NCBI RefSeq assembly: GCF_021653975.1
Contig: NZ_JAJKFK010000010.1
Coordinates: 124,001-188,000 of the forward strand
Direction of reading: 5' to 3'
Origin: Amycolatopsis sp. GM8
GTDB lineage: Bacteria > Actinomycetota > Actinomycetes > Mycobacteriales > Pseudonocardiaceae
Length of the DNA stretch: 64,000 nucleotides
The notes beneath the pieces are model-generated. The model did not search any database. It saw only the letters and a program-made list of their open reading frames with translations, and was not told the origin of the DNA. Both the position numbers and the translations under genes were made by a program. Shown here one piece after another: positions 13,447-39,428 of this stretch (position 1 is the stretch's first letter; the number at the start of each line of letters is the position of its first letter).

Positions 13447-13944
13447 GTGAAAGCAAGAACGCTCCTGGGTTTCCTCGCCCTGGCGTCGGTGACGGCGTGC
13501 GCGCCCGCCCCGGCTGTACCGCCTCCGGTGCCCGTTGTCCCGTCACCCGTTCAGCCCGCGCCGTCCACGCCGGAACCGGTGACTCCGCCGCCTCCGCCGT
13601 GCGCCGCGCCGGTAACCGCGTGCGTGAGCCTTTCGCGCAAACTGGCTTGGTTGCTGCGCGACGGCGCGGTGACCGACGGGCCGGTACGCATCGAACCCGG
13701 CGGGCCGGAAATGCCGACCCCGGTTGGTCTCTTCCACGTCGAGTGGAAGGATCGTGAGCACTATAGTAGTGAGTACAACGATGACCCGATGCCGAACTCG
13801 GTGTTCTTCGCTGCCGGTGGCATCGCCTTCCACGCCGGCAGCCTCGAAAAGTCCTCGCACGGCTGCGTGCATTTGTCGGATGCCGATTCGGCGCGGTTTT
13901 TCGATGCGTTGGGGGTCGGTGCCCGGGTGCAGGTTGTGGCGTGA
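13447..13944 (+). CDS. L,D-transpeptidase-like (YkuD) lipoprotein
   Basis: A 165-residue secreted protein. GTG 13447 starts MKARTLLGFLALASVTAC, a lipoprotein signal with lipobox VTAC (Cys at 18), followed by a Pro-rich linker (residues ~19-50) and a small YkuD-type domain. The catalytic motif appears as SSHGCVHLS near residue 138, with the active Cys; the upstream His of the family is visible as IAFHAGS. These enzymes make 3-3 cross-links or attach proteins to peptidoglycan. The domain is short compared with the usual ~130-residue YkuD fold, so activity is probable but unproven. The gene begins 8 nt after the MFS stop without a clear ribosome site. Confidence 0.8.
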   Translation: MKARTLLGFLALASVTACAPAPAVPPPVPVVPSPVQPAPSTPEPVTPPPPPCAAPVTACVSLSRKLAWLLRDGAVTDGPVRIEPGGPEMPTPVGLFHVEWKDREHYSSEYNDDPMPNSVFFAAGGIAFHAGSLEKSSHGCVHLSDADSARFFDALGVGARVQVVA

Positions 13945-14015: not shown

Positions 14016-14030
14016 TAAAAGCTGAGGGCT

Positions 14031-14253
14031 TGGGTTGTCATCCCGTCGCCTGAAACCGAAACCATCACTTTGAGCCGGGGCCGCAACCTACAAACACAAC
14101 CGGCGGCCGACAAGACCAACCTTGCGGCCCCGGAGCAAAGTGATACATCAAACCGCAGGCGACGGGATGACAACCCACCCCGACCACCCACCCAACGCAA
14201 GATCCCCTCGGGCCCCCATCATCCCGGAGCCAGCCCGTCCGGCGAGGACATCT
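14031..14253 (-). repeat. Dispersed hairpin element, copy A
   Basis: A long interrupted hairpin. A 22-bp perfect outer stem is formed by 14031-14052 and 14156-14177 (core GTCATCCCGTCGCCTG). An inner 23-nt stem joins 14064-14086 to 14122-14144 with two mismatches (ends ATCACTTT and GCCGCAA). The flank 14200-14253 is also shared with copy B at 38552-38776, which lies in the opposite orientation. Short reading frames inside it are by-products of the repeat. No gene is seen between 13945 and 14425 apart from the terminator and this element. Confidence 0.8.
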
Positions 14254-14412
14254 CTTGATCTTGAAATCGGCCAGTAGCTCCATCAACCGTCACCATCACT
14301 CCACAGGAGGCCGGGCTGGCGTCCGACACGGCCTACGCCGACGCGACACCGTTCTGGCGCCCAGCCGGATACGTCGCCCTTTCGGTCGTGTCCAAGGTGG
14401 ACGGTGGGATGT

Positions 14413-36268: not shown

Positions 36269-38059
36269 GTGACCGCGTTGCTCGAGGCGCCCGGGACGGT
36301 GCAGGTGGTTGAGCCCGGACGGCGCAGGTGGAACAGTGCCGACACGATTGTCGGCTTGTGCTACCTCCTGGCCGCTTTGGTGATCTATGCCGGGTTGTGG
36401 GTCAACCTGGGCAGTGGCTACCTGTACAACAGCGCGCAGGACCAGAACATGTGGGAGTGGTTCTTCTCGACCACCGCCCACGCCGTGTGGAGTGGGCAGA
36501 ACCCGCTCGGGTCGGTGCTGCAGAACTATCCCGACGGCGTCAACATGATGGCCAACACGGCGATGCTCGGCCTGAGCATCCCGTTGTCGCCGATCACGTT
36601 GCTGTTCGGGCCGACCGTGACCTGGGCGATCGCGCTGACCGGTGGCCTGGCCGGCACGTCGTTCGCCTGGTACTGGGTGTTCTCGCGGAACCTGGTGAGC
36701 TCGCGGGTCGCCGCCGCGATCGGCGGGGTGTTCTGTGGTTTCGCGCCGCCGATGATCTCCCACGGCAACGCGCACCCGAACTTCGTCGTGCTGTTCCTGC
36801 TGCCGTTCATCGTGTTGCGGTTGATCCGCCTCGCGCAGGGTGAGCACCCGGTTCGTGACGGGCTGATCCTCGGCGGGCTGATCGCGTACCAGGTTTTCCT
36901 CGGCGAGGAACCGCTGCTGATCACGATGCTGGGCTTTGTCGTGTTCGCGGTCGCCTATGCCGTGACCCGCTGGCGCGAGGCCGTGAAAATGGTGCGGCCC
37001 ATGGTGATCGGCCTCGTCATCGGTGGCGTGCTCGCGCTCGCGGTGGTGATCTTCCCGCTGTGGTGGCAGTTCATGGGCCCGCAGAGTTACCGGACGCTGG
37101 AACATGGTTCGGTCGGCAATGACACCGCGGCGTTCACCCGGTTCGCGACGGAGTCGATCGCCGGTCAGCCCGAGGCCGCCGCGGACGTGTCGCTGAACCG
37201 GACCGAGGAGAACGCGTTCTTCGGCTGGCCGCTCATCGTGTTCATGGTCGTGCTGACAATCTGGTTATGGCGCAACGCTGTCGCCCGCTCGATCGCGATC
37301 TCGATGTTCGTGATGGCGTGGCTTTCGCTGGGGCTCGTGATCACCGTCGACCACCATGAGACGGGTGTCCCCGGCCCGTGGCAGTGGCTGGCGAAGCTGC
37401 CCCTGTTCGACTCGCTCCTCGAATCACGCCTGGCGATGGCGTGTATCCCGGCGGTCGGTGCCCTCCTCGCGATCGCGACCCAGCGAGTGTTCGAGGCGGC
37501 GCCCTCTTTCCGGGACAAGGAGTTGCCGATCCGGTGGTTGTGGATCGGCGCGCTGGTCGCGGTCCTGCTCCCGATCGCGCCGACCCCGCTGGAGACCATC
37601 ACGCGCCCGGCCACCCCGGCTTTCTTCTACGACGGGACCTGGCGGTCCTATGTTTCCTCGGGTTCGGTGGTCACCGTCCCGCTGCCCAGCACGGGTGATG
37701 CGCGGGCCTTGCACTGGCAGGTGCGGGCAGACTCAGGTTTCCCCCTCGCGGCGGGTTACTTTGTCGGCCCGGCGGGCCCGGATGACAAGCGTGGCCGCTA
37801 CGGCGCCGCCGAACGTCCCACGACGCACCTGTTGCAAGAGGTCCAGGACAACGGCGACGTCCCAGCCGTAACGGATGCCGACCGCGCCGCCGCAATCGCC
37901 GACCTGCGCTACTGGCACGCGGATGTCATGGTCCTGGCGCCCGGCACCACCAACCAGCAACCGCTGCAGGCCACGGTCGAGGCACTGCTGAACACCCCGG
38001 CCCGGTACGTCGACGGTGTGTGGCTGTGGGATGTGCGCCCCCTCACAGCAGCCGCGTAG
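36269..38059 (+). CDS. Large multi-pass membrane protein, GT-C glycosyltransferase-like
   Basis: A 596-residue protein with about ten to twelve hydrophobic helices in residues 25-440 and a soluble extracytoplasmic C-terminal domain of ~150 residues. The first loop (SGYLYNSAQDQNMWEWFFSTTAHAV) contains an acidic pattern like the catalytic loop of GT-C transferases or mannosyltransferase-like proteins, which use polyprenyl-phosphate sugars. This is a resemblance only. GTG 36269 follows a GGTAAGAA stretch 8 nt after the serpin stop, so the two genes may be co-transcribed. Confidence 0.7.
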   Translation: MTALLEAPGTVQVVEPGRRRWNSADTIVGLCYLLAALVIYAGLWVNLGSGYLYNSAQDQNMWEWFFSTTAHAVWSGQNPLGSVLQNYPDGVNMMANTAMLGLSIPLSPITLLFGPTVTWAIALTGGLAGTSFAWYWVFSRNLVSSRVAAAIGGVFCGFAPPMISHGNAHPNFVVLFLLPFIVLRLIRLAQGEHPVRDGLILGGLIAYQVFLGEEPLLITMLGFVVFAVAYAVTRWREAVKMVRPMVIGLVIGGVLALAVVIFPLWWQFMGPQSYRTLEHGSVGNDTAAFTRFATESIAGQPEAAADVSLNRTEENAFFGWPLIVFMVVLTIWLWRNAVARSIAISMFVMAWLSLGLVITVDHHETGVPGPWQWLAKLPLFDSLLESRLAMACIPAVGALLAIATQRVFEAAPSFRDKELPIRWLWIGALVAVLLPIAPTPLETITRPATPAFFYDGTWRSYVSSGSVVTVPLPSTGDARALHWQVRADSGFPLAAGYFVGPAGPDDKRGRYGAAERPTTHLLQEVQDNGDVPAVTDADRAAAIADLRYWHADVMVLAPGTTNQQPLQATVEALLNTPARYVDGVWLWDVRPLTAAA

Positions 38060-38062
38060 AAC

Positions 38063-38311
38063 GCCAACTCACCGACGCAGGACGCAAACACGCCCGCGCC
38101 ACGGGCAAACACGCGCGCGTGAGGGGCAAACACGCGCACAACCAGCAAACACGCCGACGCCGCGCAACCCCGGAACCCGCGCAGCCGCCTGGCACCTGCG
38201 CAGCCAGCCAACTCACCGTCACGACAAGCAAACTCACGCGCGCAGCCAGCAAACTCACCCGCGCCACGGGCAAACACGCCCGCGCGGCAAGCAAACACGG
38301 CGGAACCCGGC
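38063..38311. repeat. Tandem/dispersed 21-bp repeats (GCAAACAC/GCAAACTC core)
   Basis: GC(A/C)AAC-type cores begin at 38063, 38084, 38105, 38126, then 38145 and 38164 with 19-bp steps, and again at 38207, 38228, 38249, 38270 and 38291. Nine of the eleven keep the exact 21-bp phase within two blocks. The core is the reverse complement of GTTTGC in the array after era. The array starts 3 nt after the stop of the membrane-protein gene. No gene lies here. Confidence 0.8.
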
Positions 38312-38374
38312 AACGGAACGCAACAACGACCCCAGCCCACCCATACCTCCCCCAACCCCGATAGAAAGCCGCCC

Positions 38375-38466
38375 TAGCGGTTGGCACGTCGTGTCAAGGG
38401 TGACCGCGCCAGCGGTCATCGCGAAGCGACGCCGAAGGCGCCCTTGATACGACGTGCCAACCGTTA
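38375..38466. repeat. Cloverleaf-like palindromic element
   Basis: Arms 38375-38400 and 38441-38466 pair over 26 bp with only two G-T pairs (core TTGGCACGTCGT). Between them lie three hairpins with no spare base: TGACCGC/GCGGTCA with loop GCCA (38401-38418), TCGC/GCGA with loop GAA (38419-38429) and CGCC/GGCG with loop GAA (38430-38440). The result is a perfect four-way junction in DNA or RNA. Confidence 0.75.
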
Positions 38467-38500
38467 GACGATCGGCGATCGGGGTGGGCCCGGCGACAAC

Positions 38501-38541
38501 CCCGGCGCGAAGCGCCGGGACCCTCGCGCGAAGCGCGAGGG
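38501..38541. repeat. Two consecutive GAA-loop hairpins
   Basis: CCCGGCGC-GAA-GCGCCGGG (38501-38519) and CCCTCGCGC-GAA-GCGCGAGGG (38521-38541) stand side by side, 8 and 9 bp long with the same GAA loop as the cloverleaf arms. AAAAGAGAAAAG follows on the plus strand, so there is no T-run for a plus-strand terminator. Confidence 0.7.
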
Positions 38542-38551
38542 AAAAGAGAAA

Positions 38552-38776
38552 AGATGTCCTCGCCGGACGGGCAGGCTCCAGGATGACTGACCCCAAGGGA
38601 TCTCACCTTTTCGAGGTGGTTGAGTTGGGTGGTCATCCCGTCGCCTGCGGTTTGCGAATATCACTTTTCGCCAGAGCCGCAAGCTTTGTGTTCTCGGCCG
38701 CCGGACCCAGCCAAGGTTGCGGCCCTGACGAAAAGTGATCGTGCCGGTTTCAGGCGACGGGATGACCACCCAACTC
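38552..38776 (+). repeat. Dispersed hairpin element, copy B
   Basis: Same family as copy A (14031-14253) in the opposite orientation. The outer stem joins 38622-38647 and 38751-38776 over 26 perfect base pairs; the inner stem joins 38660-38682 and 38717-38739 (ends ATCACTTTTCG and GCCGCAA). The flank 38552-38603 (AGATGTCCTCGCCGGACGGG start) is also shared. Pairs at the top of the stem differ from copy A but stay complementary. Confidence 0.8.
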
Positions 38777-38796
38777 GGCCCGTGGGCCTGCGCCGC

Positions 38797-38823
38797 TGTC
38801 ACATCCGGCGTCCGCACGCCGTC
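38797..38823 (+). promoter_or_regulatory. ECF41-type promoter of CMD gene 1
   Basis: TGTCACA (38797-38803), a 16-bp spacer and CGTC (38820-38823) match the published ECF41 promoter pattern TGTCACA-N16-CGTC. It lies 29 bp upstream of the CMD gene start, and an ECF41 sigma gene is adjacent. Confidence 0.75.
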
Positions 38824-38852
38824 CCTCCTGCGAGATCACTAGAGGAGGAGCC

Positions 38853-39428
38853 ATGTCGCGTATTCCGGTGGTGTCCACAAAGGACGCCGGGTTGTTCACG
38901 AGGTTCGTTTACCGGGTTGCTCGCCGCCGCTATGGTGCTGTTCCGGCGCCGTTCGCCGTCAGTGCCCAGCATCCTGGACTGCTGGTGGCGGGTACGGTGC
39001 ACGAGCTGGCGGTGGAGAAGGCGTCGCATACGTTGCCGGTCAACGTGCGGGAGATCGCCGTGTACCGCGTCGCCGTGCGGCTGGGGTGTTCGTGGTGCGT
39101 CGACTTCGGCACGATGTTGCAGAAGCACGAAGGGCTCGACATCGAACGCCTCAAGGGTATCGACGACTACCCGACCTCACCGCATTTCAGCAGGCAGGAA
39201 CGCCTGGCACTCGCGTACGCCGATGCCATGACCGCCACCCCGGTCACCGTCACCGACGAGCAGGTCGCCGAGCTGGAGCGCGAGTTCGGGCGCAAGGGCG
39301 TCGTCGAGCTGACCTATCAGATCGCTCTCGAGAATATGCGCAGCCGCGTCAACAGCGCGCTCGGCATCACCGACCAGGGGTTCACGTCGGGCGAGGCGTG
39401 CCGGGTTCCGCTGCCGGGACTCGCGTGA
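38853..39428 (+). CDS. Carboxymuconolactone decarboxylase (AhpD-like) family protein
   Basis: A 191-residue CMD-family protein. The redox/active motif GCSWCVDFG (CxxC) is near residues 72-80, in the usual ...REIAVYRVAVRLGCSWC context, and a second helix has ERLALAYADAMTATP. Such proteins act as peroxidase-type reductases or decarboxylases. ATG 38853 has a strong AGGAGGAG site. It has an ECF41 promoter and overlaps the convergent ECF41 sigma gene by 47 bp: this is the sigma/target pair known for ECF41 (sigma plus carboxymuconolactone decarboxylase, oxidoreductase or epimerase). Confidence 0.9.
   Translation: MSRIPVVSTKDAGLFTRFVYRVARRRYGAVPAPFAVSAQHPGLLVAGTVHELAVEKASHTLPVNVREIAVYRVAVRLGCSWCVDFGTMLQKHEGLDIERLKGIDDYPTSPHFSRQERLALAYADAMTATPVTVTDEQVAELEREFGRKGVVELTYQIALENMRSRVNSALGITDQGFTSGEACRVPLPGLA

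Follow-up and report, generated by a model that had tools for sequence, protein, structure and literature searches.

The window analyzed here, a 64,000-nt stretch of the genome of Amycolatopsis sp. GM8, carries two copies of a palindromic element, and the question they raise is whether the pairing of the arms is under selection and, if it is, whether it is RNA or single-stranded DNA that folds, and on which strand. Both copies were found where the sequence-only reading had placed them, copy B at about 38552-38776 and copy A at about 14031-14253 on the opposite strand, and the base changes described there are indeed present: the outer arm is GTGGTC/GACCAC in B and GTTGTC/GACAAC in A, while the inner stem is TTTTCG/CGAAAA in B and TTTG/CAAA in A. 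Each copy folds better than its dinucleotide shuffles (z of -8.87 for B and -6.00 for A), and none of 200 shuffles was as good in either case. What had been described as a flank is shared by the copies as claimed, but it is not mere flank; it is the 3' domain of the element, consisting of CATCCYRGAGCC, a small hairpin and a T-rich tail.

We call the element D. In copy B its long hairpin lies at 38624..38774 with the minus strand as the folded strand, and has the outer stem core GTCATCCCGTCGCCTG, a variable inner stem and an apical loop of ~37 nt. On the same strand the 3' domain holds the conserved motif CATCCTGGAGCC (38574..38585), which nearly repeats the hairpin arm CATCCCGTCGCC in direct orientation, then the small hairpin P1 (GTCC-GGCGA-GGAC, 38556..38568), in which one covarying pair is U-A, C-G or has both bases absent, and finally the T-rich tail (38540..38555), which is terminator-like but was not scored as a terminator by the scan. 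Copy B is one half of a larger composite. A second hairpin, U, stands tail to tail with D at 38346..38488 on the plus strand, with outer arms at 38346-38362 and 38477-38488 and inner arms at about 38374-38399 and 38441-38466. An array of 21-nt tandem repeats (GCAAACACGCGCGCGCCACGG-like) lies immediately left of U at 38084-38296, and similar 21-nt repeats lie left of U in several other copies of this genome. The gene left of copy B (36269..38059, plus strand) encodes 596 aa with a weak, below-cut-off match to DUF6541; it is conserved across the genus and served to locate the orthologous copy-B sites there. In copy A the long hairpin is at 14029..14179 with the plus strand as the folded strand, no U adjoins it, and the 3' domain with CATCCCGGAGCC, P1 and the T-rich tail occupies 14180..14276 on the plus strand. 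It is preceded by an L,D-transpeptidase (YkuD) gene (13447..13944, plus strand, start codon placed by eye), which ends about 85 nt ahead of the hairpin.

Two copies alone are too thin a basis, because copies of one genome evolve in concert. The two belong to a much larger set. Copy B as a query gave 75 BLAST matches in the genome of the window (G000; 8.16 Mb, 22 contigs), many of them the palindrome's own reverse, and mapping of these matches resulted in 35 copies of nearly full length, among them A and B, and in four partial ones from which the hairpin is missing. All 35 share an identical outer-stem core, GTCATCCCGTCGCCT. By BLAST the element was found in 17 of the 19 genomes of the genus, G000 included, and the exact two-arm pattern occurs in at least 91 stretches of named genomes; those listed include Amycolatopsis, Saccharomonospora, Thermocrispum and Prauserella, all of which we take to be Pseudonocardiaceae (the family of A. 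bartoniae was read from its record). The covariance-model search that had been proposed for this element was also run. The hairpin model had a match in 152 of 390 Pseudonocardiaceae genomes, spread over 32 of 46 genera, and when it was applied to 396 genomes drawn over the phylum only G000 matched and none of the other 395 did; seven candidates were scored per genome under strict filters, so that copy numbers are floors and misses are possible. The loci read in the family search were those fetched for the best model matches, and what is said below of the arms holds for the copies read, which do not include the weaker matches in many genera. The initial concern that only two copies might exist is therefore removed, as there are dozens per genome. 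No Rfam 15 model matched D at its gathering score (the window has a tRNA elsewhere only, and nine further loci have none); the best match below the cut-off in 38050-38860 reached 42 bits to a miRNA model with a cut-off of 90. In open-licence PMC papers we found no account of such repeats, RNAs or terminators for Amycolatopsis, Pseudonocardiaceae or Actinobacteria.

The structure was evaluated on 29 diverse hairpins, hand-picked from the 88 non-redundant ones among 149 copies and with the structure named from the first of them. In this set 97.3% of cells are paired and 19 of the 47 pairs have changed on both sides, with 125 such cells; since the copies of a genome are kept similar, the cells do not count as independent events. 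The covariation score was 0.277, compared with a mean of 0.110 for shuffled alignments and at most 0.063 for slid versions, and none of 500 shuffles reached any of the five structure measures. The proposal that selection acts on structure is thus supported by many intergenic copies, by pairs changed on both sides and by shuffles that never match. Fixed segments (GTCATCCCGTCGCCTG, ATCAC and CCGCAA) surround the segment of the hairpin that is variable yet paired. The search for relatives in named genomes used an exact pattern of the 16-base arms, so that arm invariance is ascertained there, whereas the G000 copies, L138-L148 and L182-L221 came from BLAST. The conservation of the arms was read from 51 BLAST-derived loci, in 43 of which the 3' domain was recognised. 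Over the two 16-base arms these 43 loci show no difference in 14 cases, one in 21, two in seven and seven in one, and three of the seven loci with two differences have one or more of them within the arm core. Besides these nearly fixed arms the element holds a third near copy of the arm.

The strand on which the structure is constrained can be read from the pairs that are imperfect. Inner stems were counted after nine of the 149 parsed copies were set aside because they misfit the anchors, and eight of the remaining 140 because they have other arm lengths. The resulting 48 distinct inner stems, read on the strand used in the sequence-only reading, contain 702 Watson-Crick pairs, 38 A·C, 21 C·C, one G·T and one G·G, with five further mismatches (three C·T and two A·A) outside these counts, and when partners are shuffled the Watson-Crick fraction drops from 0.91 to a mean of 0.67. 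Since the mismatches on that strand are mostly A·C and C·C with hardly any G·T, the constrained strand is the complement, where they become G·U and G·G. By alignment pairs of the inner stem, 12 show G·U only, one A·C only and one both. With the loop replaced, the complement folds better in 36 of the 48 inner stems, equally in 10 and worse in two. The structure had therefore been read on the wrong strand, and folding on that strand is rejected by the mismatch asymmetry together with the loop-replaced energies. This strand signal resides in the inner stem. Whole-hairpin energies of D speak against the complement, as 34 of 88 hairpins are more stable on it and 54 less, a preference that probably comes from the loop. 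The proximal pairs of the outer stem are mixed (G·U 24, A·C 10; one pair each way and five both), and all D pairs drawn by RNAalifold sum to 112 G·U and 80 A·C. Mutational bias is unlikely as the source of the signal: at paired positions inside the hairpin C>T is not in excess (17 vs 21 G>A, three clades), while outside it C>T exceeds G>A by 48 to 32 (18 vs 5 for the G000 copies) in raw counts that carry no correction for base content.

U behaves in the same manner on the other strand. In 68 of 68 pairs it lies on the 3' side of D and on the opposite strand. A recognisable U stands beside 68 of the 144 D copies with enough flank, and by the motif used none stands beside the other 76. In 33 non-redundant copies its inner stem varies, with up to four Watson-Crick types per position between fixed GUCAAGG/CCUUGAC ends. 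Mismatches in 47 distinct arm pairs, read on the strand opposite to that of D, are G·T 46, G·G 14, A·G 10 and C·C 7, and more rarely C·T 6, T·T 2, A·A 1 and A·C 1; with the outer arms included the alignment has 69 G·T and 28 A·C. On the strand opposite to that of D, 22 of 33 U hairpins fold better and 10 worse. On the strand where U folds, no T-rich tail accompanies it. The two elements can be gained or lost independently: the G000 locus L041 has D alone whereas its A. bartoniae ortholog L062 has both D and U. Lone U motifs make up three of 89 in the fetched loci, a number which understates them because the loci were chosen for having D, and in G000 five or more of the longer U matches stand without a D match in their vicinity. 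Several U matches are situated about 130 nt from the ends of contigs C3, C4, C7, C18 and C20 of G000, and it seems that the assembly breaks at these palindromes.

On the folded strand the order of parts is the long hairpin, a variable stretch, CATCCYRGAGCC (a near repeat of the arm CATCCCGTCGCC), P1 and the T-rich tail. P1 has the form GNCC-GGCGA-GGNC, and the N bases are U-A, C-G or both missing in 150 of 154 copies. A short open reading frame in this domain (ATG TCC TCG CCG GAC ...) was considered and rejected, because the variant without the two bases shifts its frame. Seven or more T within 13 tail positions are found in 126 of the 154 copies, compared with 15% T in the window. P1 has a stem of 3-4 bp; its shortness counts against a role as a terminator, and a simple terminator scan called nothing at copy B.

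The position of D relative to genes is far from even. Context was counted with a home-made gene finder based on codon scores; a copy was included if it showed the 3'-domain pattern, if its flank measured 900 nt or more, and if a gene was predicted on each side of it. In 88 of 100 such copies a same-strand gene lies on the 5' side, with a median of 36 nt from the stop codon to the hairpin core. The neighbours are convergent in 68 of 100 copies, compared with 94 of 636 (15%) other adjacent gene pairs in the same loci; the remaining copies lie between same-direction genes (20 and 9) or divergent genes (three), and 97 adjoin at least one gene 3' end. A cruder count gave a same-strand gene ending within 160 nt in 84 of 133 copies. 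Between the end of the YkuD gene (13944) and copy A a terminator-like hairpin is visible by eye, which the scan did not flag, and site L062 of A. bartoniae likewise shows one by eye, after the gene and ahead of D; at these two places transcription would thus seldom reach D. In G000 no gene on the same strand precedes copy B, while the orthologous D in G003 follows a minus-strand alpha/beta hydrolase gene (L174 610-1353). This gene is missing at the orthologous place of the window, 38780-38850, where D is left as an orphan.

The original suggestion left RNA and mobile single-stranded DNA side by side. Strand-specific mismatches, the opposite strands of D and U and the placement at gene 3' ends favor RNA, and the mobile DNA part found no support. 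Our preferred reading, which we regard as evenly poised between right and wrong, is that D is a transcribed 3'-end RNA module that helps to end or insulate convergent transcription. D would be a structured module in the 3' untranslated region of its same-strand gene; RNA polymerase leaving each of two convergent genes would transcribe first D or first U, and the folded RNA would stop or shield transcription and mark the mRNA 3' end, so that D and U together could form a two-sided barrier to transcription and an mRNA end cap. The role in termination or insulation is inferred from where D sits, from its tail and from its pairing. That the arm is nearly fixed suggests that a host factor or a mobilising enzyme recognises it, and neither was found. 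Within the RNA reading a protein or an RNA may bind the arm, since a nearly fixed sequence would be superfluous in a plain terminator. A more specific version, which we offer tentatively and hold to be rather doubtful, is that unrelated D and U, tail to tail between convergent genes in Pseudonocardiaceae, could be a dedicated insulator made of two RNAs, with a trans-acting factor that reads the 16-bp arm and with conversion among copies within the genome.

It is possible, though less likely than not, that D and U are instead non-autonomous mobile elements which insert behind stop codons or terminators, in which case the conserved parts would be recognition sites of a transposase, and position and pairing would reflect target choice and recognition of the hairpin. 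The copies are dispersed with unrelated flanks, and nearly fixed 16-base arms with a third near copy would suit such sites. The history of orthologous loci also fits. Among 11 fetched copy-B sites, where D is present at some and absent at others, G003 has a whole D, G010 a remnant, and the other nine (G001, G002, G004, G005, G007, G008, G011, G012 and G013) no D motif, and the U beside D in A. bartoniae is not present at the orthologous G000 site. On the other hand, no clean target duplication was seen at the filled and empty orthologous sites compared, which are too diverged to show one. A 20-kb piece of G015 compared with G017, G014 and G006 gave no empty site among the matches listed, and contigs of G017 break at the elements. 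In the remnant of G010 (L170) the long hairpin is gone and the 3' domain is kept; the G000 remnants L042, L043, L044 and L045 likewise lack the hairpin, and the simplest reading is that the long palindrome was lost by deletion. D was not matched on plasmids, phages or viral contigs of the collections searched, and the constraint of D and U on opposite strands is unlike what is expected of one excised single strand.

Neither of the two enzyme families tested as drivers of such mobility, Y1_Tnp and RVT_1, tracks D. A Y1/RAYT transposase had been suggested at the outset, but Y1_Tnp (PF01797) occurs in one of the 19 genomes of the genus, G013, which itself has no BLAST match to D, and is absent from all 17 genomes that carry the element, so a RAYT/IS200 origin is rejected. 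With retron msr-msd D shares a small and a long hairpin in one RNA. RVT_1 is found in eight of the 19 genomes and does not match D copy number; eight copy-rich genomes (G005, G006, G007, G009, G012, G014, G015 and G016) have none, which rejects a retron or a reverse transcriptase acting in trans. The lone RVT_1 match of G000 (L149, G000:C16:633012-633644) is a 382-aa ORF with a YADD motif that looks retron-like by eye. Its contig has no BLAST match to D, and no reverse transcriptase is encoded beside D.

Copies within a genome resemble each other more than their orthologs. In a tree of 50 D rows, one supported group (98/91) holds 14 of the 15 A. bartoniae rows, or 11 of that species' 12 distinct copies, with L112 outside. 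For six loci common to G000 and A. bartoniae some other copy was always more similar than the ortholog, which ranked between 2 and 33 of 35, and mean identity is 0.76 between orthologs vs 0.82 among copies within G000. As the tree suggests, copies within a genome are apparently kept alike by gene conversion or replacement. It is unlikely that D is a trans-acting non-coding RNA, whose transcripts from many loci would bind a common protein or each other via their arms: an arm nearly fixed in the copies read and its near repeat CATCCCGGAGCC would agree with this, but a median of 36 nt after stop codons leaves little room for a promoter, a sigma-70-type scan found none at copy A or copy B, and the genes adjoining D are varied by eye, with three neighbours covered by the family scan. 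Neutral maintenance, in which template switching during replication, a known route of palindrome correction, alters both arms without selection, would suit copies that evolve in concert but is highly improbable, since it would remove G·T and A·C alike while the inner-stem mismatches persist with a strong strand bias, and since it leaves the gene 3'-end placement and the conserved 3' domain beyond the palindrome unexplained.

The transcribed 3'-end module that we prefer has partial likenesses among known systems. REPs are, according to PMC3733652, dispersed palindromes of 20-40 bp tagged GTAG or CGTC, located mostly downstream of genes, between convergent or same-direction ones, and G·T pairs in their stems are taken there as a sign of transcription. 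Like REPs and BIMEs, D is palindromic, intergenic, downstream of genes and rare between divergent ones (3/100). However, it is a hairpin of about 150 nt with a 3' domain, by eye it has no GTAG or CGTC tag at its foot in the alignments (CGTC lies inside the arm), and it is faced by a second, unrelated hairpin on the other strand. In intrinsic terminators, according to PMC5381666, the stems change in a compensatory way and G·U is the intermediate seen most often, and D shares with them compensatory changes, a hairpin followed by a T-rich tail and a position after the stop codon. It differs in being much larger, in the nearly fixed primary sequence of the arms in the copies read, in the distance of about 60-80 nt between the long hairpin and the tail, and in the negative scan at copy B. 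The closest precedents seen are the terminators of PMC5381666, for their compensatory evolution, and the REPs of PMC3733652, for their placement and their G·T pairs.

The concerted evolution of short dispersed hairpins would itself need explaining, and the comparison of A·C with G·T mismatches is a cheap way to separate selection at the RNA level from selection at the DNA level in dispersed palindromes. Pseudonocardiaceae include antibiotic producers. If D is transcribed as proposed here, it would be an RNA family of many genera of Pseudonocardiaceae, one without a match in Rfam 15, and it would offer a test bed for how bacteria of high GC content stop convergent genes from colliding.
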